DNA from: a virus | DNA: 64,000 nt | Reading direction: 5' to 3' (one strand) | IMG/VR virus record: IMGVR_UViG_3300033153_007973 | Coordinates: 170,009 to 234,008 of that record | Shown: one piece after another, positions 28,059-59,987 of the stretch | Layout of the letters: the number at the start of each line of letters is the position of its first letter | How positions within the stretch are numbered: position 1 is the first letter of the stretch | Program-made: the position numbers and the translations under genes | The notes under the pieces: generated by a model | Seen by the model: only the letters and a program-made list of their open reading frames with translations | What the model was told of the DNA's origin: nothing | Databases searched by the model: none

Positions 28059-28772
28059 TTATCCTCCTCTAATATGAGTGTCCGCATGAACACTACTTGC
28101 TATCTCCAGAAATGGGAGCAGTGCACCCTCTGGTGTTGATTGAATATTATCGCCCTCTACTTGCTGATATGGCTGTAGATAGTAAGGGACTTCGTCTGGT
28201 ATTAGTCTTGCAATTGCTCTGATGATCCTCTCGTTCACATAAAGAGGATGACATGTTGTTCTGATCTCGTACTGGAAATCTAACGATGTACGATAGTTTT
28301 CCATTACATCTAAGCTAGATATGATTTGCTTCCAGTGTTTGGCTTCATATCCTTTTCGATTTTGTCCTGCTTGTGGATATGTCTTGATATCCATTGCGAC
28401 ATAATCGATGTGAAGTCTGGTTATCACATATGATAATCTGTCAGCATATGTACCATTTGTATCTAGCTTAACCATTAAGCCAAGTTTGTGTGCCTCCAAT
28501 GCAATGGTTTGAATCTCATTGAATGATGAGCATGGGGGTTCACCGTGTAATGGTTCACCCCCGGTTATCACAACTGCATCGATAAGATCTTTGCTCTTTC
28601 TCATCCGGTGTATTACTCTTCTCATTTCTATTGATTCCACAACTTGTGGCATTCTTGCGAGTGCCATGTTGTGACAGTATGTACATTTTAGGTTGCATCC
28701 CTTCATGAAGATCACCATAGCTGGTAAGCTAGGGTAATCAACAAGAGAGAGGTTTGTTATTGCTCCTACCAT
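28059..28772 (-). CDS. nrdG: Anaerobic ribonucleotide reductase activating protein (radical SAM)
   Basis: The 237-residue protein has the cluster motif C-N-L-K-C-T-Y-C-H-N near residue 26 and the SAM-binding V-V-I-T-G-G-E-P-L near residue 69. NrdG-type activases use a 4Fe-4S cluster and SAM to put the glycyl radical on NrdD. Its size and N-terminal L-S-L-V-D-Y-P-S-L-P segment match the longer bacterial activases (NrdG2/PflA-like). It lies 15 bases downstream of the nrdD stop in the same direction, as expected for a working pair. Confidence 0.85.
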   Translation of the reverse strand: MVGAITNLSLVDYPSLPAMVIFMKGCNLKCTYCHNMALARMPQVVESIEMRRVIHRMRKSKDLIDAVVITGGEPLHGEPPCSSFNEIQTIALEAHKLGLMVKLDTNGTYADRLSYVITRLHIDYVAMDIKTYPQAGQNRKGYEAKHWKQIISSLDVMENYRTSLDFQYEIRTTCHPLYVNERIIRAIARLIPDEVPYYLQPYQQVEGDNIQSTPEGALLPFLEIASSVHADTHIRGG

Positions 28773-53151: not shown

Positions 53152-54004
53152 TTTTCGCCTCCTCTTTTTCATCTTCTGTTGATACCTCCAGAGGAATTCC
53201 TAATGCAGCTAACTTCTCTGTTTCATTTAGTGGAGTTAGCTTTTCGATAGTTCTATTCACTAGCTGCGGAAGAGGCATGAATATCTTCTTGGTTTCATCA
53301 TTCCTGGTTTCTAGGTCTGCCGCGCCGCGCAACACTCTGGTAGCCATAGTATGTATGACTAATCCTTTGGATAATCTGATGTTCTCCTTACATGTGGCTG
53401 CACCAGAGGTATTCTTACCAAGTCCTTTAGTCTGTCTAATTGCTAACCTGGCAAAACAACAGATGGGTCTATTGCTGTACGTAGTACAGAGCTTCGTGCT
53501 CTTATCTAAGAAAGGGCACGCCATCTTCAATTCGAATGCTTTTTGTGCTGCCTCCTTGAGTTTCCCCTTGTCCCAAAGTTCATAGACACCTGCTTCTTCG
53601 TATGCAGCATCAAGCATATCAACCATAGATACTGTGGCAGCATAGTCTCCTTGTTGTATAGATTGTGCAATTAGTAAAGCTTCTTCGCCATAAGTGATAG
53701 GAACTAATGTATAACAACAAAGACAGCACTTTTCTTTGCATGCTGTCTTGTATGCCTTCTTTTTGCCGTTAACTTTAAGTTTCTTAAGCCCTTCAAGATC
53801 TTCTTGAACAGCGAGGTATGCTTTAGCTCTTGCAGCATCTATATTAGCGATGAATTCTTGTGGATCACGAGGTCTTATCTTCAGGACATCACTTCCCCCC
53901 TTTTCCTTGAAGACACTCTTCTGCATCTTTTGCACAGCATCTTCGGGTGGTTTCTCTGTCTGTCCCATCATGAGTCCTGTATTCATGTCTTCTGGCTTAT
54001 CCAT
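53138..54004 (-). CDS. CxxCxxCC (YkgJ-type) metal-binding protein
   Basis: The start behind GGAGGAAAG is chosen. Two Cys groups are seen: C-K-E-K-C-C-L-C-C near residue 90 and, about 75-95 residues later, C-P-F-L-D then L-C-T-T-Y-x-x-R-P-I-C-C-F. This matches the YkgJ/PF03692 pattern of iron- or zinc-chelating proteins; some members may act as chaperones or oxygenase-like enzymes. A long helical C-terminus is added. Function in the phage is unknown. Confidence 0.65.
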   Translation of the reverse strand: MDKPEDMNTGLMMGQTEKPPEDAVQKMQKSVFKEKGGSDVLKIRPRDPQEFIANIDAARAKAYLAVQEDLEGLKKLKVNGKKKAYKTACKEKCCLCCYTLVPITYGEEALLIAQSIQQGDYAATVSMVDMLDAAYEEAGVYELWDKGKLKEAAQKAFELKMACPFLDKSTKLCTTYSNRPICCFARLAIRQTKGLGKNTSGAATCKENIRLSKGLVIHTMATRVLRGAADLETRNDETKKIFMPLPQLVNRTIEKLTPLNETEKLAALGIPLEVSTEDEKEEAKNGHT

Positions 54005-54371
54005 TCTTTCCTCCATAGATGAGCTCGAGTAGTGCTGTTAGTGGTAGCATTGCTACCATCTTGTTAGTTTTTGATGGTGTAATGATAATTCCTTTTCTTC
54101 CTCTCATTGCTGCTTGTAGTGCTATCTTTTCTAGTTCATTATCAGTCGCGATAGCACTTTTTGCGTTGCCCTTCCATTTGGCATCGATAGCAATCTGTGG
54201 TCTGTCAGGATGATGCTGAGAAACTATGTCTCCATCGTTATGTACAGCACCAGATCCTTTTGTCTTAATGAATCCTTCATCGTATTTGTGAATGAGTTCA
54301 AGGATCTCATCCTCATACTCATCACCAATGTCTCGTGTGTCTAGTCCTTTTGCCACTGTTTCTTTATCCAT
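53997..54371 (-). CDS. Small PD-(D/E)XK nuclease-like protein
   Basis: The 124-residue protein has K-T-K-G-S-G-A-V-H-N-D-G-D-I-V near residue 38 and I-A-I-D-A-K-W-K near residue 60, an Asp then D-x-K arrangement, with a following helix. This resembles small resolvase/Mrr-type nucleases, though the usual ExK is DxK here. It lies directly after a RecA-core ATPase, overlapping it by 31 bases, which suggests DNA processing with that ATPase. The family call is tentative. Confidence 0.5.
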   Translation of the reverse strand: MDKETVAKGLDTRDIGDEYEDEILELIHKYDEGFIKTKGSGAVHNDGDIVSQHHPDRPQIAIDAKWKGNAKSAIATDNELEKIALQAAMRGRKGIIITPSKTNKMVAMLPLTALLELIYGGKNG

Positions 54372-55180
54372 TTCTCTACGATTTCTATATCTTTTGTGTT
54401 TGTTGCTGGATTATCCATCATTGCTAAGGGAAGTAGTGTTTCTACTATCTTGTTGTTCAGGATATTACCATCATAGTCCATAGGAAGCGTTGCAATCCTG
54501 CCTTCCTTAGTTCCCTTACCGCGATATCTTTCCAGCTTAAGTTGGCTGATGGAATACTTCTCTCGTTTCTCTACGCGCTTCATATAGATAGACATAGTCA
54601 TCATGCCTTGAAGGCCAGGTCGTCGAGCATAGTATCCACCCTTCATGTTAGCTCTGATTTGGTTGCATACTATTAGGATGGTTTCTGTGATGCCACATGA
54701 TGACATAAGTTGTATAACAGAGCCAGGATCGGTAACACAAGCAAAGTCGTCTAGAATTATGATGTTGTATTCTCCGACCGCGGGGATGACTGGAGCAATC
54801 TCTGCAGTTTGGACAATGCTGAAGTCTCCGCTCAGTTTAGTTATATAGTTTTTGTTTGCTGCAAAAGTAGTGTCAATGAGAAGGATTTTCCCGCCACAAC
54901 ATGCAGTTTGACTAGCAATATTAAGAGCGAGTGCGGTTTTACCTGATGAGGGAGGGCCCCAAATGTGTACTCTACTTGAGGGATTGAGTGGTCCTGCTAC
55001 ATAATCGTATGGAAGAACACCACTCCATACATCACCTCCGATGGAGATCTTCCTTTTCTCTGTGGAAGATGCTAGATGGATCATGTTCAGGAGTTTGTGC
55101 CTGACTCGGTGATTATCAATACCTATATCGGTAATGAGTTTATCGATATCGATAAGCTTTTGTTCTCTTGGGTCTTCCAT
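54341..55180 (-). CDS. RecA-core ATPase (second recombinase-like protein)
   Basis: The 279-residue protein has Walker A W-G-P-P-S-S-G-K-T-A near residue 75 and a catalytic-type strand I-L-L-I-D-T-T-F near 97. It has Walker B I-I-I-L-D-D-F near 143 and an L1/L2-like I-V-C-N-Q-I-R near 168 and Y-Y-A-R-R-P-G-L-Q-G near 182. It is shorter than the other RecA-like protein at 32658-33827 and lacks its N- and C-terminal regions, so it looks like a RadA/KaiC-type core. A helper or regulator of recombination is likely. Confidence 0.7.
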   Translation of the reverse strand: MEDPREQKLIDIDKLITDIGIDNHRVRHKLLNMIHLASSTEKRKISIGGDVWSGVLPYDYVAGPLNPSSRVHIWGPPSSGKTALALNIASQTACCGGKILLIDTTFAANKNYITKLSGDFSIVQTAEIAPVIPAVGEYNIIILDDFACVTDPGSVIQLMSSCGITETILIVCNQIRANMKGGYYARRPGLQGMMTMSIYMKRVEKREKYSISQLKLERYRGKGTKEGRIATLPMDYDGNILNNKIVETLLPLAMMDNPATNTKDIEIVEKWIKKQWQKD

Positions 55181-55215: not shown

Positions 55216-55629
55216 CTACTCCTTCTCAGTCTCTTGCTTTATAGCTTGATCAAAGCTAGACTCTTCCGGAGTTGGTACCCCTTCGTCCTGGTGTGCACCA
55301 GCTGCTCTCTCCATGGCTTTACTTACATCTTCATATCCAGCCTTGATGAGAGAATTGAGTTTCCTGTTTTCTTTGCCATCCATTGTATCTCGGGCGAGAA
55401 CCTCTGCCATTACCGCTTGCATAGCAGTAGAGATAATGACTCGGATTATCTCGTCTCTAGGCTGTCGATGATTCTTTGCAGCTACTAAGACTTCCTTGGA
55501 TCCATCTGTGGCTTTCTTCATGAGCCAGTTCCAAAACTCTGGTTCTCTCTCACAGATGTACTCCTGTGCCTTAGTTCCAATGGCATCAGCAGATTCTAGG
55601 ATACGTGAAGTAATGATGGATTCACCCAT
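55216..55629 (-). CDS. Hypothetical helical protein (137 aa)
   Basis: I do not recognise this protein. It is helical with Trp residues near 33 (F-W-N-W-L-M-K-K-A) and a hydrophobic helix (I-R-V-I-I-S-T-A-M-Q-A-V-M-A) near 65. The tail is acidic. It lies 13 bases after the DUF2997-like gene and has GGAGTAAG, so it is part of the same transcript. It might be a fourth partner of the AAA+ set (position only). Confidence 0.5.
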   Translation of the reverse strand: MGESIITSRILESADAIGTKAQEYICEREPEFWNWLMKKATDGSKEVLVAAKNHRQPRDEIIRVIISTAMQAVMAEVLARDTMDGKENRKLNSLIKAGYEDVSKAMERAAGAHQDEGVPTPEESSFDQAIKQETEKE

Positions 55630-55641
55630 CTTCTTACTCCG

Positions 55642-55845
55642 TTACGACTGGCTGTTCTGGGCAACAACTTTGGAGTCCTTGTCTCTGGACTCCTCTCTGA
55701 ATGTTAAGTCTTTATGTTCGCTGATATGCGAAAGACTTTCGGCAATCTCACTCAGATGTTTTGTACAGCTGCCCTTTACTCCATGGACATCGACTTCAAT
55801 CTTTCCGTCGATATCAATGGTTGCGGTTACACCTTTCTGTGACAT
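55642..55845 (-). CDS. DUF2997-like small protein (67 aa)
   Basis: The N-terminal 35 residues, T-I-D-I-D-G-K-I-E-V-D-V-H-G-V-K-G-S-C then H-L-S-E-I-A, match the DUF2997 pattern (a strand, D-G, a strand, G-V-K-G, Cys, a helix). The C-terminal 30 residues are charged. DUF2997 proteins are known mainly from cyanobacteria and other bacteria next to DUF1257 proteins. Here the DUF1257-like gene lies 35 bases upstream. Their biochemical role is not known to me. AAAGGAG precedes the ATG. Confidence 0.65.
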   Translation of the reverse strand: MSQKGVTATIDIDGKIEVDVHGVKGSCTKHLSEIAESLSHISEHKDLTFREESRDKDSKVVAQNSQS

Positions 55846-55880
55846 ATTCCTCTCCTTTGTTAACGTATCGGGAACGTTTC

Positions 55881-56222
55881 TTAGACGTTCGCCTGGATTA
55901 CGTACTTGCTGTTCTTTTCCAGGTTACGCAGGCCTGGTTCCTGAATGTTCTTGTAGCCACGTTCCATGAACAGTTCACGGACTGCAACGACGTTGCAAGC
56001 CTGGAGAAAACGATTGACATGCTGCTTGTTCATGGTGTCACCTTTGGCATCAAACGTTCCATTCGTGTTCTTTTTGAACGTGACGGAACCGTAGTAGCCT
56101 TCGTTGACGTGAACCTTCAGAGTGTCCTTGATTTTCTCCACCTTGTGACCACGTTCTTTAGCAGCTTGCTCAATATGACTCTCACAAGATACTTTGGTCT
56201 TAACTGTTAGAATCCCACTCAA
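55881..56222 (-). CDS. DUF1257 (Ycf35-like) protein
   Basis: The start chosen is a TTG with AGGAGG nine bases upstream; a longer frame to 56333 crosses the promoter. The 113-residue protein has L-T-V-K-T-K-V near residue 4, A-A-K-E-R-G-H near 20 and E-G-Y-Y-G-S-V-T-F-K near 38. A helical C-terminus contains Q-H-V-N-R-F-L-Q-A. This follows the DUF1257/Ycf35 pattern (K-T-x-I/V, A-L/K-x-x-L/R-G, G-Y-x-G). It sits between the Ycf46-like AAA+ gene and the DUF2997-like gene. Confidence 0.6.
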   Translation of the reverse strand: MSGILTVKTKVSCESHIEQAAKERGHKVEKIKDTLKVHVNEGYYGSVTFKKNTNGTFDAKGDTMNKQHVNRFLQACNVVAVRELFMERGYKNIQEPGLRNLEKNSKYVIQANV

Positions 56223-56305
56223 TGTATTATACCTCCTCTTTAGTTTTATCATTCCATCTGGGATGATATCTTTCTCTCTTTTCCTCAATCGTTTGTATGT
56301 GTACC

Positions 56306-56333
56306 AACATATACTATTGATCGATTTTGTCAA
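56306..56333 (-). promoter_or_regulatory. Possible sigma70-type promoter upstream of the DUF1257-like gene
   Basis: Minus-strand TTGACA (56328-56333) is followed by 16 bases and TATGTT (56306-56311). It begins 10 bases downstream of the AAA+ gene and precedes a leader of roughly 80 bases. It could supply extra transcription of the DUF1257, DUF2997 and RecA-core genes. The -10 has four of six consensus bases. Confidence 0.5.
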
Positions 56334-56342
56334 GCATTTTAT

Positions 56343-58022
56343 TTAACTTTTCTGTCGCGTGATTGATGCGAATTCAGCATGTTTCTTCGCCCAGTTTCGT
56401 AGGTCAACGATCTCTTTCTTGTCGTAGTCAATCCCTTTACACTCACGAATTTGTGCCATAATCATGCTGGTATTCAGTTCTTCGTCCTCAATTACGCTGG
56501 TTGCGACTGCTTCATTCACAATAGATTCGATTTCCGCGCCGGTAAAGTCCTCCATTTCGCTGATGATCTTTTCCTTGTCTTCCTTGGGAAGCTTAAGCGC
56601 ATCTTCACCTCGTTTCTTCATGTGGATTGCGAAGATTTCTGCTCTCTCAGTTGGACCTGGAACATCCATGAAGAACATCTTATCGAATCTTCCTTTCCTC
56701 ATGAACTCTCCGGGTAAAGATTTCACGCGGTTCGCACTGACACCAAAGATGATGTCATTGCTCTCGTTCATTGCGCGTAGGAGCATTCCAAAGATCCTCA
56801 GTGGAACATCGCTTCCTGCGGTCTGCCCCTCACCGACCCCGGCAAGAACCTTGTCTACCTCATCAATGAGACAGAAACAAGGTGCTAGTTTCCTCAAGGT
56901 GTCAAACCCAGCCTGTAACCTGCTCTCACTCTCGCCGACATATCGACCGAGTGCCAGGTTCAGGTTCAGTTCATATGAAGGCAAACCCCATTCTTTACCC
57001 ATTGCTTCTAGTAAGATAGTCTTACCAGATCCTGGGATACCAACCAAGAATATTCCTTTCATCTGAACATTCTTTGCTTTGGCTTTCTCCCATTTCTCAA
57101 CGATGGATTTGCGTCTGTTGATGAACTTCTTTACTACTTCGTATCCACCAACATCTTCCATGCGAATGGTCTCGCTGAGTTCTTTCACAACTGCATTGCT
57201 TCTAAAGATACCGCTTCTGATCCACGTTGCTGCCTGGACCATTGCGTCAATCCGTTTCTTTCCTGCTAGATCATCAGCACCTTTGTGAGCAGCAGCTGCT
57301 ACCATGGTACACTCATTCTGGATTAGACCACCAAGGTGTTCCCATAGTTGTTTCGGATAGATTAGGTTACCCTTCTTGTCCTTCTTCTCCGATGTAATCC
57401 ACGATGGAAGTTCGGTCTTCATGGCTCCAAAGACAAAGCAATGTGAAGCTATCTGCGGAGGTGGTTCTAGTGTTTCACCAAGCAGAATTATTGTACTGCT
57501 CGTCGGTACCTGTGATTTCGGTTTGTACTCCTGCATTGCTTCGGAGTGCTGTGTCGAAGTTCCTTGTTTCTTCTTTCCACCTAGAGGCGGTGCTAGCTTG
57601 AACAGCTTATCGGCACCAACATACAGTGACTTACACATACTTACCAATGGAGGTGATCTATCAAATGAATCTCTTTCCATTAGGCACAGGAATACATTGC
57701 TTCCTGGTCTTAGTATCTGTGCATGAGGTGATACTCCAATCACCAAAGATAGCAGAGTTTCTGCATCTGTGATTGGTTGATTTCCCATGGATAACTTAAT
57801 CGTTACCTGTGATACTGTAGGTGCTCCACCACTTAGAGGAAGATCGTACAGGAATAATCCTGCTCCGTTCACAAAGAAATAAGTTCCTCCGGAGTTACCT
57901 CCCCTTGCTTTATGCCCCGCCACTACTGCTAGCAGGGTTGGAACATCCCTGTCTGAGATATGTATTAGCGGTGCTCCTACGTCAAGTAACCGTAGGAATT
58001 CGTCGACTTTCTTTAGAGCCAT
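56343..58022 (-). CDS. Ycf46-like AAA+ ATPase
   Basis: The 559-residue protein has an N-terminal region of about 290 residues (G-A-P-L-I-H-I-S-D then beta-rich). It then has E-D-V-G-G-Y near 290, leading into a single AAA+ module: Walker A V-G-I-P-G-S-G-K-T near 330, Y-V-G-E-S-E-S-R near 364, Walker B C-L-I-D-E-V-D-K near 384 and a sensor/arginine-finger G-R-F-D near 440. The G-G-Y-E-V-V-K-K-F-I linker and G-E-S-E-x-R loop match Ycf46-type AAA+ ATPases of cyanobacteria and plastids. It would act as a protein remodeller. AGGAGG precedes the ATG. Confidence 0.75.
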   Translation of the reverse strand: MALKKVDEFLRLLDVGAPLIHISDRDVPTLLAVVAGHKARGGNSGGTYFFVNGAGLFLYDLPLSGGAPTVSQVTIKLSMGNQPITDAETLLSLVIGVSPHAQILRPGSNVFLCLMERDSFDRSPPLVSMCKSLYVGADKLFKLAPPLGGKKKQGTSTQHSEAMQEYKPKSQVPTSSTIILLGETLEPPPQIASHCFVFGAMKTELPSWITSEKKDKKGNLIYPKQLWEHLGGLIQNECTMVAAAAHKGADDLAGKKRIDAMVQAATWIRSGIFRSNAVVKELSETIRMEDVGGYEVVKKFINRRKSIVEKWEKAKAKNVQMKGIFLVGIPGSGKTILLEAMGKEWGLPSYELNLNLALGRYVGESESRLQAGFDTLRKLAPCFCLIDEVDKVLAGVGEGQTAGSDVPLRIFGMLLRAMNESNDIIFGVSANRVKSLPGEFMRKGRFDKMFFMDVPGPTERAEIFAIHMKKRGEDALKLPKEDKEKIISEMEDFTGAEIESIVNEAVATSVIEDEELNTSMIMAQIRECKGIDYDKKEIVDLRNWAKKHAEFASITRQKS

Positions 58023-58049: not shown

Positions 58050-58472
58050 CTATCCGTCCCAGTCACTCCCACCTTTTTCGTCACTTGCAGGTGCAGCCTG
58101 CTCTGTCTTCGCGCCATCGGATGCTGGTTTGGCTTCGCCACTGCCCTTTGCAGGACCATCGCCCAACAGGGTGATGTCATTAGCATTGACACGAACTTTC
58201 CAGTATCGAGTAGATTTTCCTTCCTTCTCGACGTCGTCATAGTACAGCCCACCATTTACAAACATGATGCGCTTCCCACCTTTGATGTAGTCGGCGAGCT
58301 TTCCATCTTTGCGAACGAAGATCTCGACATTAATAAACTGTCGATCCTTCCGTTCTGCTTTGGGCTTCTGGCTCCGCACGGACAAACCAAAGTTCACGAA
58401 GCGACCAGTATCACCGGCTTCGTTGATCCTCACGTTGTCAGTAACGTAACCTTCAGCTGTTACCTTAATCAT
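58050..58472 (-). CDS. ssb: Single-stranded DNA-binding protein (SSB)
   Basis: The 140-residue protein has an OB-fold N-terminal part (about 1-100) with the SSB pattern A-E-G-Y-V-T-D, G-R-F-V-N-F-G-L-S-V, F-I-N-V-E-I-F and R-Y-W-K-V-R-V. A Gly/Ala/Lys-rich linker follows, then an acidic C-terminal tip G-G-S-D-W-D-G that resembles the D-F-D-D-x-x-P/F recruitment tail of bacterial SSB. It coats single-stranded DNA at forks. It lies just upstream of the AAA+ gene, with AGGAGG. Confidence 0.85.
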   Translation of the reverse strand: MIKVTAEGYVTDNVRINEAGDTGRFVNFGLSVRSQKPKAERKDRQFINVEIFVRKDGKLADYIKGGKRIMFVNGGLYYDDVEKEGKSTRYWKVRVNANDITLLGDGPAKGSGEAKPASDGAKTEQAAPASDEKGGSDWDG

Positions 58473-58482
58473 TGTAATCCTC

Positions 58483-59082
58483 CTAACGTATAAATAGCGG
58501 CCGTTCGACCGCTTTACTTATCAATTCTAGATTTCTCACAAATGCTGATGCTATTGCCTTCTTGTATTCCTTCTTGCGATCAGCATCACCTCTTAGTATT
58601 GCTGCTGGATGATAAATGGGCATGATATCAATATTAAATCCATCAGAAACTGTTAGTGTTGAAATTTTACCATTGACTTCTCCGATTCTGACCTGGGCTA
58701 GTCCAATCTTTTCCTTTTGGGTTAGTGCCCAGTAAGCAGTAGCACCAACAGATATAATCATCTTTGGTCTGATCTTCTGAATCTCTTGGATGAGGATTTC
58801 TGCATCCTCACTGATTTCTTTCTCAGTGGGACGTCTTGTTCTTCCTCTGTCATCAGTGGGAAAGAACTTCACGACATTTGTCATGATATAATCGCCTTCC
58901 TCTATGCCAGCCCATTGTAGTATCTGCTGGAGTAACTGTCCTGATTTGCCAGCAAATGGTATTGGTACTGATACTGATTCCATGCCAGGACTCTTTAGGA
59001 CATGACCTATCTCATCTTTCCCAGGGCCTTCGCCGACTATCATAATTGGTGCTAGGATCGAGCCTCTTGAATAACAGTTCAT
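58483..59082 (-). CDS. Family 4-like uracil-DNA glycosylase without Fe-S cysteines
   Basis: The start behind CGAGGAGAG is chosen. The upstream in-frame ATG at 59136 would put the hairpin element in coding and is rejected. The 199-residue protein has M-I-V-G-E-G-P-G-K-D-E near residue 15, T-N-V-V-K-F-F-P near 75 and I-Y-H-P-A-A-I near 160, the three family 4/5 motifs. The Cys residues that hold the 4Fe-4S cluster in family 4 are missing (K-F-F-P where K-C-R-P is usual). It may excise uracil or be a processivity or decoy form. It is under the 59106-59133 element. Confidence 0.7.
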   Translation of the reverse strand: MNCYSRGSILAPIMIVGEGPGKDEIGHVLKSPGMESVSVPIPFAGKSGQLLQQILQWAGIEEGDYIMTNVVKFFPTDDRGRTRRPTEKEISEDAEILIQEIQKIRPKMIISVGATAYWALTQKEKIGLAQVRIGEVNGKISTLTVSDGFNIDIMPIYHPAAILRGDADRKKEYKKAIASAFVRNLELISKAVERPLFIR

Positions 59083-59105
59083 TGTCTCTCCTCGAATCTT
59101 TTTTA

Positions 59106-59133
59106 GCGGGGACAGGTTTTGACCCCCTTTAAG
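59106..59133 (-). promoter_or_regulatory. Repeated 28-nt hairpin element, copy 2
   Basis: The RNA-sense sequence is CUUAAAGGGGGU followed by CAAAACCUGUCCCCGC. GGGGG pairs with UCCCC around an AAAACC loop. It contains the stop codon of the preceding 71-residue gene and sits 24 bases before the ATG of the UDG-like gene, with GGAG in between. Copy 1 is at 48214-48241 and differs at five positions outside the stem-loop core. It probably binds a regulator of translation. Confidence 0.6.
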
Positions 59134-59344
59134 CATCGAATATGATCTCTTTGAGCTTACATGTATGATCGAGTGTCTTAAGTTTACGTATTAATACATT
59201 GATTTTGAGTGCTAGTGCTGCAAGCGTACCTGACACATGATGCAAGAGTTTGTTTCCGCAGTCATATTCATCTTGAAGATCTACATAGTTTAAGTATGCG
59301 ATCTTGAGTCTCCACTTCCAGAATGCTATGCGCATTTTTCGCAT
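59129..59344 (-). CDS. Small hypothetical protein (71 aa)
   Basis: The start behind AAGGAGATCAGAG is chosen. The protein is aromatic and basic at the N-terminus (R-I-A-F-W-K-W-R-L-K-I-A-Y) with a hydrophobic central helix (G-T-L-A-A-L-A-L-K-I-N-V-L-I). It overlaps the previous gene by 19 bases, and its stop codon lies within the second hairpin element. Function unknown. Confidence 0.5.
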   Translation of the reverse strand: MRKMRIAFWKWRLKIAYLNYVDLQDEYDCGNKLLHHVSGTLAALALKINVLIRKLKTLDHTCKLKEIIFDA

Positions 59345-59537: not shown

Positions 59538-59987
59538 TTATGTATAATTGCTATTCTCTTTACAGATATGGTCTGCCGTACCTGCATTTATATTATATGT
59601 TTCATAGCAGAATTGACATGTTCTCCATCCACATGAGTATGCCCATTCTTCGACAGCATCTTTTGCTTCTTTCAGACCAGTATTATAGAATTCTCTATGT
59701 TTTTTGATGGCCTGGATTTTTTTGCCCTGGATAAACAATTCATGCCATTCTTTGTCTGCTTCATCTCTTTCTAGTTCACCTTTGAGGAGGCCTCCAACAT
59801 GTGCTATCGATGGTAAGGCTGTTAGTCTACTTGTTAGTGATACAATACAACAGTTGTGTCCATCCCACCATTGGCATTGTTCCTCGTGACAGGTTGTAAA
59901 TACGGGAGTATCATACGATGGATCATTTGGAGTTGGTCTAGACTTTACGAATGATAATGGACAGATCTTATATTTTGGATCTTTCAT
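59538..59987 (-). CDS. Cys-cluster protein with an L7/L12 C-terminal-domain-like motif (149 aa)
   Basis: The protein has an N-terminal C-P-L-S then C-H-E-E-Q-C-x-x-W and C-C pattern (about 9-48) and a C-terminal C-G-W-R-T-C-Q-F-C near 120. In between is G-K-K-I-Q-A-I-K-K-H-R-E-F-Y-N-T-G-L-K-E-A-K-D-A-V-E, which matches the helix pair of the ribosomal protein L7/L12 C-terminal domain. Free-standing L7/L12-like domains occur in phage and bacterial proteins of unknown role. It could contact translation factors; this is inference. Confidence 0.55.
   Translation of the reverse strand: MKDPKYKICPLSFVKSRPTPNDPSYDTPVFTTCHEEQCQWWDGHNCCIVSLTSRLTALPSIAHVGGLLKGELERDEADKEWHELFIQGKKIQAIKKHREFYNTGLKEAKDAVEEWAYSCGWRTCQFCYETYNINAGTADHICKENSNYT

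Follow-up and report, generated by a model that had tools for sequence, protein, structure and literature searches.

What does a virus do with a Ycf46-type AAA+ ATPase and two small proteins of the DUF1257 (Ycf35) and DUF2997 families, encoded side by side next to genes for a single-stranded DNA-binding protein (SSB) and a RecA-like ATPase? A first-pass annotation, made from the sequence alone, had recognised this triad and proposed that its carriage by a virus points to a self-contained function, such as protein remodelling or a conflict or defence role, rather than photosynthesis. Here we examine the identity of the three proteins, the distribution of the set and the activity that best fits the available evidence.

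Results

The gene set and its viral background

The window, that is, the whole stretch of 64,000 nucleotides that was analysed (G000:C1:170009-234008), is the right end of a virus record of 234,008 bp, and its last 50 kb form a long run of minus-strand genes. The three open reading frames of the triad lie on this strand, and the triad reading was confirmed, with qualifications. The genes around them are transcribed in the order uracil-DNA glycosylase (UDG) superfamily, SSB, AAA+, DUF1257, DUF2997, a 137-aa gene, RecA-core ATPase and a resolvase-like gene, with intergenic gaps of 10-35 bp except for the 120 bp between the AAA and DUF1257 genes:

58483..59136, minus strand: UDG superfamily gene (PF03167, 3e-26), 10 bp upstream of the SSB gene
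58050..58472, minus strand: SSB (PF00436, 3.3e-06, above cut-off), 27 bp upstream of the AAA gene
56343..58022, minus strand: probable Ycf46-type AAA+ ATPase, 559 aa (Pfam AAA, 1.3e-21; phrog_8638, 2.6e-63)
56223..56342, minus strand: gap between the AAA and DUF1257 genes, with a promoter-like match, a palindrome and a Shine-Dalgarno sequence
56333-56306, minus strand: promoter-like TTGACA-16-TATGTT in this gap
56247-56268, DUF1257 leader: 22-bp near-perfect palindrome TATCATTCCATCTGGGATGATA, unique in the window
56232-56238, minus strand: strong Shine-Dalgarno sequence GAGGAGG before the TTG start of DUF1257
55881..56222, minus strand: divergent DUF1257 (Ycf35) protein by profile, 113 aa, TTG start at 56222 (window-free profile, 1.6e-4; hhalign, 95.3%)
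55642..55845, minus strand: DUF2997 protein, 67 aa (window-free profile, 1.1e-6; hhalign, 97.1%)
55216..55629, minus strand: 137-aa gene, no Pfam hits, 12 bp after DUF2997
54341..55180, minus strand: RecA-core ATPase, 279 aa (PF00154, 9.2e-07; phrog_97 UvsX-like, 3.9e-09)
53997..54371, minus strand: possible Holliday-junction-resolvase-like protein (phrog_2002, 1.9e-04; Mrr_cat below cut-off), overlapping the RecA-core gene

Both neighbours named in the first-pass annotation, SSB and the RecA-core ATPase, are thus real according to Pfam. The RecA-core ATPase is distinct from a second UvsX/RecA protein elsewhere in the window, which scores 1.8e-29, and a search for its relatives in phage and plasmid collections found none. 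The window also encodes a family-B DNA polymerase, a clamp loader, a DnaG-type primase, a DnaB helicase, a UvsX-like recombinase, an anaerobic ribonucleotide reductase (NrdD) and a resolvase. The presence of NrdD together with an NrdG-like radical-SAM activase (28059-28772) suggests an anaerobic or facultative host. One gene of the window contains an intein splicing domain (PF14890, 8.5e-11), and the 149-aa protein encoded at 59538-59987 includes a segment resembling the C-terminal domain of ribosomal protein L7/L12 (25.8 bits, cut-off 25.9). Neither Rfam nor tRNA scans found anything in the window. Scans of viral contigs with single proteins matched one contig, which is identical over 13,677 bp and therefore provides no independent close relative; a near-identity search of 24 kb among known phages found none.

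The AAA+ ATPase

All catalytic residues of the AAA+ protein reside in its C-terminal half, namely, Walker A (G328-T335), Walker B (D387-E388), sensor N431 and arginines R442 and R445, along with a pore loop, RYVG, that contains the aromatic Tyr361, and a C-terminal signature, W544/A552. Across 82 relatives, the classical catalytic AAA columns are invariant, W544 is found in 77 and A552 in 78, and the only P-loop in each of the 82 is in the C-terminal half; the N-terminal half of the window protein (residues about 1-285), like theirs, has no P-loop. Position 361 is nearly always hydrophobic in these relatives (L 40, F 14, Y 13, I 6, M 3, W 2, V 2). In the phylogenetic tree, the window protein falls on the Ycf46 side of a 97% branch. 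Its own branch is very long, and two viral triad sequences close to it have long branches too, so that its exact place is unsure. An identity as FtsH was rejected given that the tree separates FtsH from the window protein and that the FtsH profile TIGR01241 yields 93 bits against a cut-off of 600, matching the AAA part alone and not the zinc protease domain that marks FtsH. FtsH-type AAA loci caught in the survey of viral loci described below (L063, L065, L067-L070, L073-L079) carry neither partner gene. Taken by sequence, the C-terminal classical AAA domain, the W..A signature and the grouping apart from FtsH identify this protein as a probable Ycf46-type ATPase. The N-terminal half is very divergent: a family profile of this half, which features the motifs FVLKDFH, SP..iP.ELEK and GLT..EAE, aligns with only 25 residues of the window protein in a weak match of 5.4 bits.

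The two small proteins

The assignment of the two small proteins by the first-pass annotation fails formally when judged by Pfam thresholds but stands when judged by profiles built without the window. PF06868 (gathering score 22.2 bits) matches neither the DUF1257 protein nor any other place in the whole record, and Pfam, NCBIfam, PHROGs and PADLOC returned nothing for this protein. We therefore relied on DUF1257 and DUF2997 profiles that were built from clear members in annotated phages, with RHph_I4 (annotated as DUF1257/DUF2997) and HJ05, both Pfam-confirmed, as seeds, and extended over viral and cellular loci. A DUF1257 profile that included neither the window protein nor its identical copy retrieved the window protein with E=1.6e-4 among 14,176 open reading frames (iteration 3), and hhalign against the window-free profile gave 95.3% over 94 aligned columns; in the controls, unrelated profiles reached at most 1.0%, and the maximum, 2.3%, was obtained for the 137-aa neighbour. 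The listed reading frame, 55881-56333, is over-extended; the gene starts with TTG at 56222, GAGGAGG lying about 10 bp before it, and from this start the N-terminus reads MSGILTVKTKV against MSHFTTIRTKI in the family. The window protein lacks a middle stretch of about 14 residues and retains 9 of the 23 consensus positions. From these comparisons we conclude that the protein encoded at 55881-56222 is, as judged by profile similarity, a divergent DUF1257 member.

The DUF2997 protein scores 23.7 bits (4.3e-05) with PF11211, 0.4 bits short of the cut-off of 24.1, and the place 55642-55845 is the only one in the whole record that matches this profile. The profile made from viral relatives without the window found the protein with E=1.1e-6 (iteration 1), and hhalign gave 97.1% over 40 columns, unrelated profiles again staying at or below 1.0%. 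Neither small protein of the window matched the phage DUF3150, c265, c218, c121 and MPCDT families, and the 137-aa gene matched none of the corresponding partner profiles.

The first-pass annotation had named a promoter inside the set. The corresponding TTGACA-16-TATGTT match exists in the 120-bp gap before DUF1257, yet promoter-like sites in the region are not above chance, with 16 observed versus 13.0 in shuffled sequences, so that the promoter is unproven and a separate transcript is a guess. The palindrome at 56247-56268 is a candidate operator or hairpin.

Distribution of the set

With the AAA+ protein as the query, tblastn matched 125 phage records, generic AAA hits included, and with the DUF1257 protein of RHph_I4, 21 phage records. 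A survey of phage genomes for the triad, as suggested by the first-pass annotation, identified 31 viral loci, fetched by AAA similarity, in which the three genes lie together within some 5 kb, some of these loci belonging to related phages. The isolates with the triad include RHph_I4, in which DUF1257 and DUF2997 were already annotated, HJ05, SM1 and RcDurkin, and the hosts of triad phages are Rhizobium, Aeromonas and Pseudomonas, with Rhodobacter phages represented as well. All three genes are also found in 42 of the 88 loci from cells and plasmids, many of them non-photosynthetic and some archaeal; the AAA loci in cells span Bacillota, Actinomycetota, Chloroflexota, Planctomycetota, Verrucomicrobiota, Myxococcota, Cyanobacteriota and archaea. 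This widespread recurrence bears out the co-occurrence of the three families, and the presence of the set in phages of Rhizobium, Aeromonas and Pseudomonas, in Bacillota, Actinomycetota and Planctomycetota, and in archaea agrees with the earlier suggestion that it is not tied to photosynthesis. The window set is a divergent phage copy of a widespread, uncharacterised Ycf46-DUF1257-DUF2997 set; its carriage by viruses is not unusual, and phage copies are already in public records under these family names.

The phage triads of Rhizobium RHph_I4 and L338C, Aeromonas HJ05, Pseudomonas SM1 and Rhodobacter RcDurkin consist of the same families in the order AAA - DUF1257 - DUF2997, and share with the window the length of the AAA protein, the C-terminal W..A signature and nearby replication genes. 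However, the window set is far more divergent, with 34% for the AAA protein, across its C-terminal half only, and it lacks both the gene of about 210 aa (c218) that most other phage triads carry between AAA and DUF1257 and the 121-aa gene that often follows DUF2997. In several phages, this 121-aa protein (L003:6712-7083, L007:6339-6704 and relatives) shares the N-terminal hairpin of DUF2997 (hhalign, 62% over 16 columns). The flanks of the other triad phages contain genes for DnaB helicase, primase-helicase, a DnaD-like loader, ligase, RecT and exonuclease VIII, but lysis genes (endolysins) are equally frequent there, so that the link to replication is not exclusive.

Other neighbours of Ycf46-type ATPases were noted in the same collection. 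A DUF3150 protein, which is missing from the window, adjoins the AAA gene in 14 viral loci (L015:5850-6863 and 13 others), and the 265-aa protein of Corndog-type phages, which hhalign relates to DUF3150 with E 0.001 over 103 columns and a probability of 20%, may be a distant DUF3150 relative. In L095 (Treponema pTRESU01), the gene immediately after the AAA and radical-SAM genes encodes a phage baseplate assembly protein V, which hints that the pair may be connected to a contractile-tail-like cluster.

Predicted structures

The AlphaFold (AF2) model of the AAA+ protein has a mean pLDDT of 76.5, with values above 90 over most of residues 281-540 and below 50 at 68-139 and over most of residues 41-153. 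The full-length model aligns to the D1 and D2 tiers of p97, Cdc48, Drg1 and Rix7; in particular, residues 1-549 align to p97 (7lmz_C; Z 25.8, rmsd 4.7, 446 residues), the model matches Drg1 (7z11_C; Z 25.6, rmsd 5.1, 429 residues), and its C-terminal half matches substrate-bound Vps4 (6bmf_B; Z 26.3, rmsd 3.0, 275 residues). Within the family, the profile of the N-terminal half matches the lid part of the C-terminal half profile in register (E=4.5e-4 in one comparison, probability 33%); a PDB sequence search with profiles of the N-terminal half yielded nothing convincing. We read the model and this weak lid match as suggestive of a two-tier AAA motor, the first tier of which is degenerate and would have lost ATP hydrolysis; the soft spots of this reading are the low-pLDDT stretch and the 5.4-bit match of the N-terminal half.

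Cdc48/p97 consists of two AAA domains, with a P-loop in each, after an N-domain. The window protein resembles Cdc48/p97, Drg1, Rix7 and Pex1/Pex6 in the predicted span over D1 and D2, the classical AAA residues and the hydrophobic pore loop but, unlike Cdc48/p97-type proteins, it has no N-domain before D1, no P-loop in the first tier and no ubiquitin-type adaptors. Membership in the Cdc48/p97 group was accordingly rejected.

The AF2 model of the DUF1257 protein (pLDDT 77) has a beta-alpha-beta4-alpha fold. Foldseek found no significant PDB hit for this model, the DUF1257 profiles found nothing convincing among PDB sequences, and the best VIA match (Z 8.0, METTL16 KA1-like) lies among unrelated small alpha/beta domains, so that the fold is uninformative; a binding module would be compatible with the predicted fold, which is not diagnostic of one.

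Discussion

Of the activities proposed in the first-pass annotation, protein remodelling is the best supported, given the predicted fold, which matches p97/Cdc48, Drg1, Rix7 and Vps4, and the intact catalytic residues. The ATPases p97/Cdc48, Drg1 and Vps4 pull polypeptide through a pore with hydrophobic pore loops. From the features computed here (homology, conserved co-occurrence, intact catalytic residues, the N-terminal half devoid of a P-loop, and gene context), we infer a mechanism in which the AAA+ protein would form a hexamer of two stacked AAA tiers. The inactive N-terminal tier could serve as a platform for partners, whereas the active C-terminal tier would hydrolyse ATP and draw polypeptide through the pore via the hydrophobic pore loops (Tyr361). 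DUF1257 and DUF2997 may act as small adaptors or regulators that deliver the client or control the ATPase, a role suggested by their neighbourhood only. Because the genes around the set encode SSB, a UDG-family protein, the RecA-core ATPase and a resolvase-like protein, its likeliest use concerns replication or recombination complexes; given the site between SSB and the RecA-core ATPase, we favour such phage complexes as the putative clients, which the set would take apart or re-set during DNA replication or recombination. Taken as a whole, a hexameric two-tier threading AAA+ with small adaptors, used on the replication and recombination complexes of the phage, appears to us a reasonably probable account. 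A more specific version, in which DUF1257 and DUF2997 recruit the ring to SSB- or RecA/UvsX-coated DNA, and the p97-like ring strips the filaments, is unlikely; if true, such a set would be the bacterial-virus counterpart of FIGNL1 acting on RAD51. We found no biochemistry of any phage member.

The main rival lead comes from the cellular loci. The AAA gene has a Fer4_12/radical-SAM gene close by, in many cases immediately upstream, in about 20 of the 88 cell and plasmid loci (among them L094-L096, L118, L128, L136, L139, L146, L155, L157, L159, L164, L173, L174 and L179), in Planctomycetota a different radical-SAM family precedes the AAA gene (L110, L124, L170), and in Synechocystis, a ferredoxin gene is located beside DUF2997 and ycf35 (the DUF2997-ycf35-fed7 cluster; PMC4284462). 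Accordingly, the AAA+ protein and its partners might mature Fe-S/radical-SAM enzymes, and the phage, which encodes NrdD, the NrdG-like protein and other radical-SAM proteins, might apply the set to its own anaerobic enzymes. However, in none of the viral loci do the 5 kb around the AAA gene include a radical-SAM gene of the cell-locus family, and a radical-SAM link in the window itself was rejected because the NrdG-like gene is unlinked, 28 kb away, and explained by NrdD; we consider this explanation fairly improbable for the phage. The same observations qualify the earlier claim of a self-contained set, which holds at most for the phage form, a radical-SAM/4Fe-4S neighbour being frequent in cells.

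The defence or conflict role that had also been proposed for the set, which would either disarm or itself constitute a toxin-antitoxin or anti-phage AAA system such as IetAS or SgiAT, fares worse. Mobile elements do often carry the set, and SgiA of SGI1 is a SpoVK/Ycf46/Vps4-superfamily AAA ATPase paired with a subtilisin (PMC10954446). The IetAS and SgiAT pairs share a classical AAA domain with the window protein but combine it with the subtilisin protease rather than with DUF1257 and DUF2997. The relevant PADLOC matches in the window are limited to the generic IetA AAA domain (9.5e-14, at most 50 bits, AAA domain alone), NF042959 IetA gives 46 bits against a cut-off of 510, no IetS or other subtilisin partner was seen among the neighbouring genes scanned, and the two small proteins match no PADLOC model. 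Membership in IetAS was rejected on these grounds and, with the same set being chromosomal in many phyla, including archaea, a conflict module is quite unlikely. Still less can be said for a replication factor that acts on DNA or the replicase in the manner of a clamp or helicase loader, without threading protein. The SSB, UDG and RecA-core genes adjoin the set in the window, and initiator-like and DnaB genes follow it in several phages, but a clamp loader and DnaB are already encoded by the phage, the AAA domain belongs to the classical type and has hydrophobic pore loops, and a Pfam search of the AAA+ protein for a DNA-binding domain found none; this possibility seems to us very unlikely.

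Cyanobacterial and plastid Ycf46 (Slr0374), Ycf35 and DUF2997 belong to the same families as the window proteins, and in the cyanobacterial chromosomal AAA loci that were fetched, DUF1257 is beside the AAA gene but DUF2997 is not. In Synechocystis, CO2 utilisation and EcaB activity are reportedly affected when Ycf46 is lost (work cited in PMC7496141); in the window phage, there is no sign of a link to photosynthesis.

In the literature searched, we found no paper that describes the phage set, and three things seem to be undescribed there: the occurrence of the set across phages, its interpretation as a two-tier, p97-like machine and the association with radical-SAM genes in cells. The papers that we found treat Ycf46 and Ycf35, both of them conserved in plastids and cyanobacteria, as photosynthesis genes. 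In our survey, the same set emerges as a general, mobile module that occurs in phages whose hosts are easy to grow, namely, Pseudomonas aeruginosa, Aeromonas, Rhizobium and Rhodobacter capsulatus, and with a compact phage copy, which combines a predicted p97-like motor with two small partners, the function of these proteins becomes directly testable.
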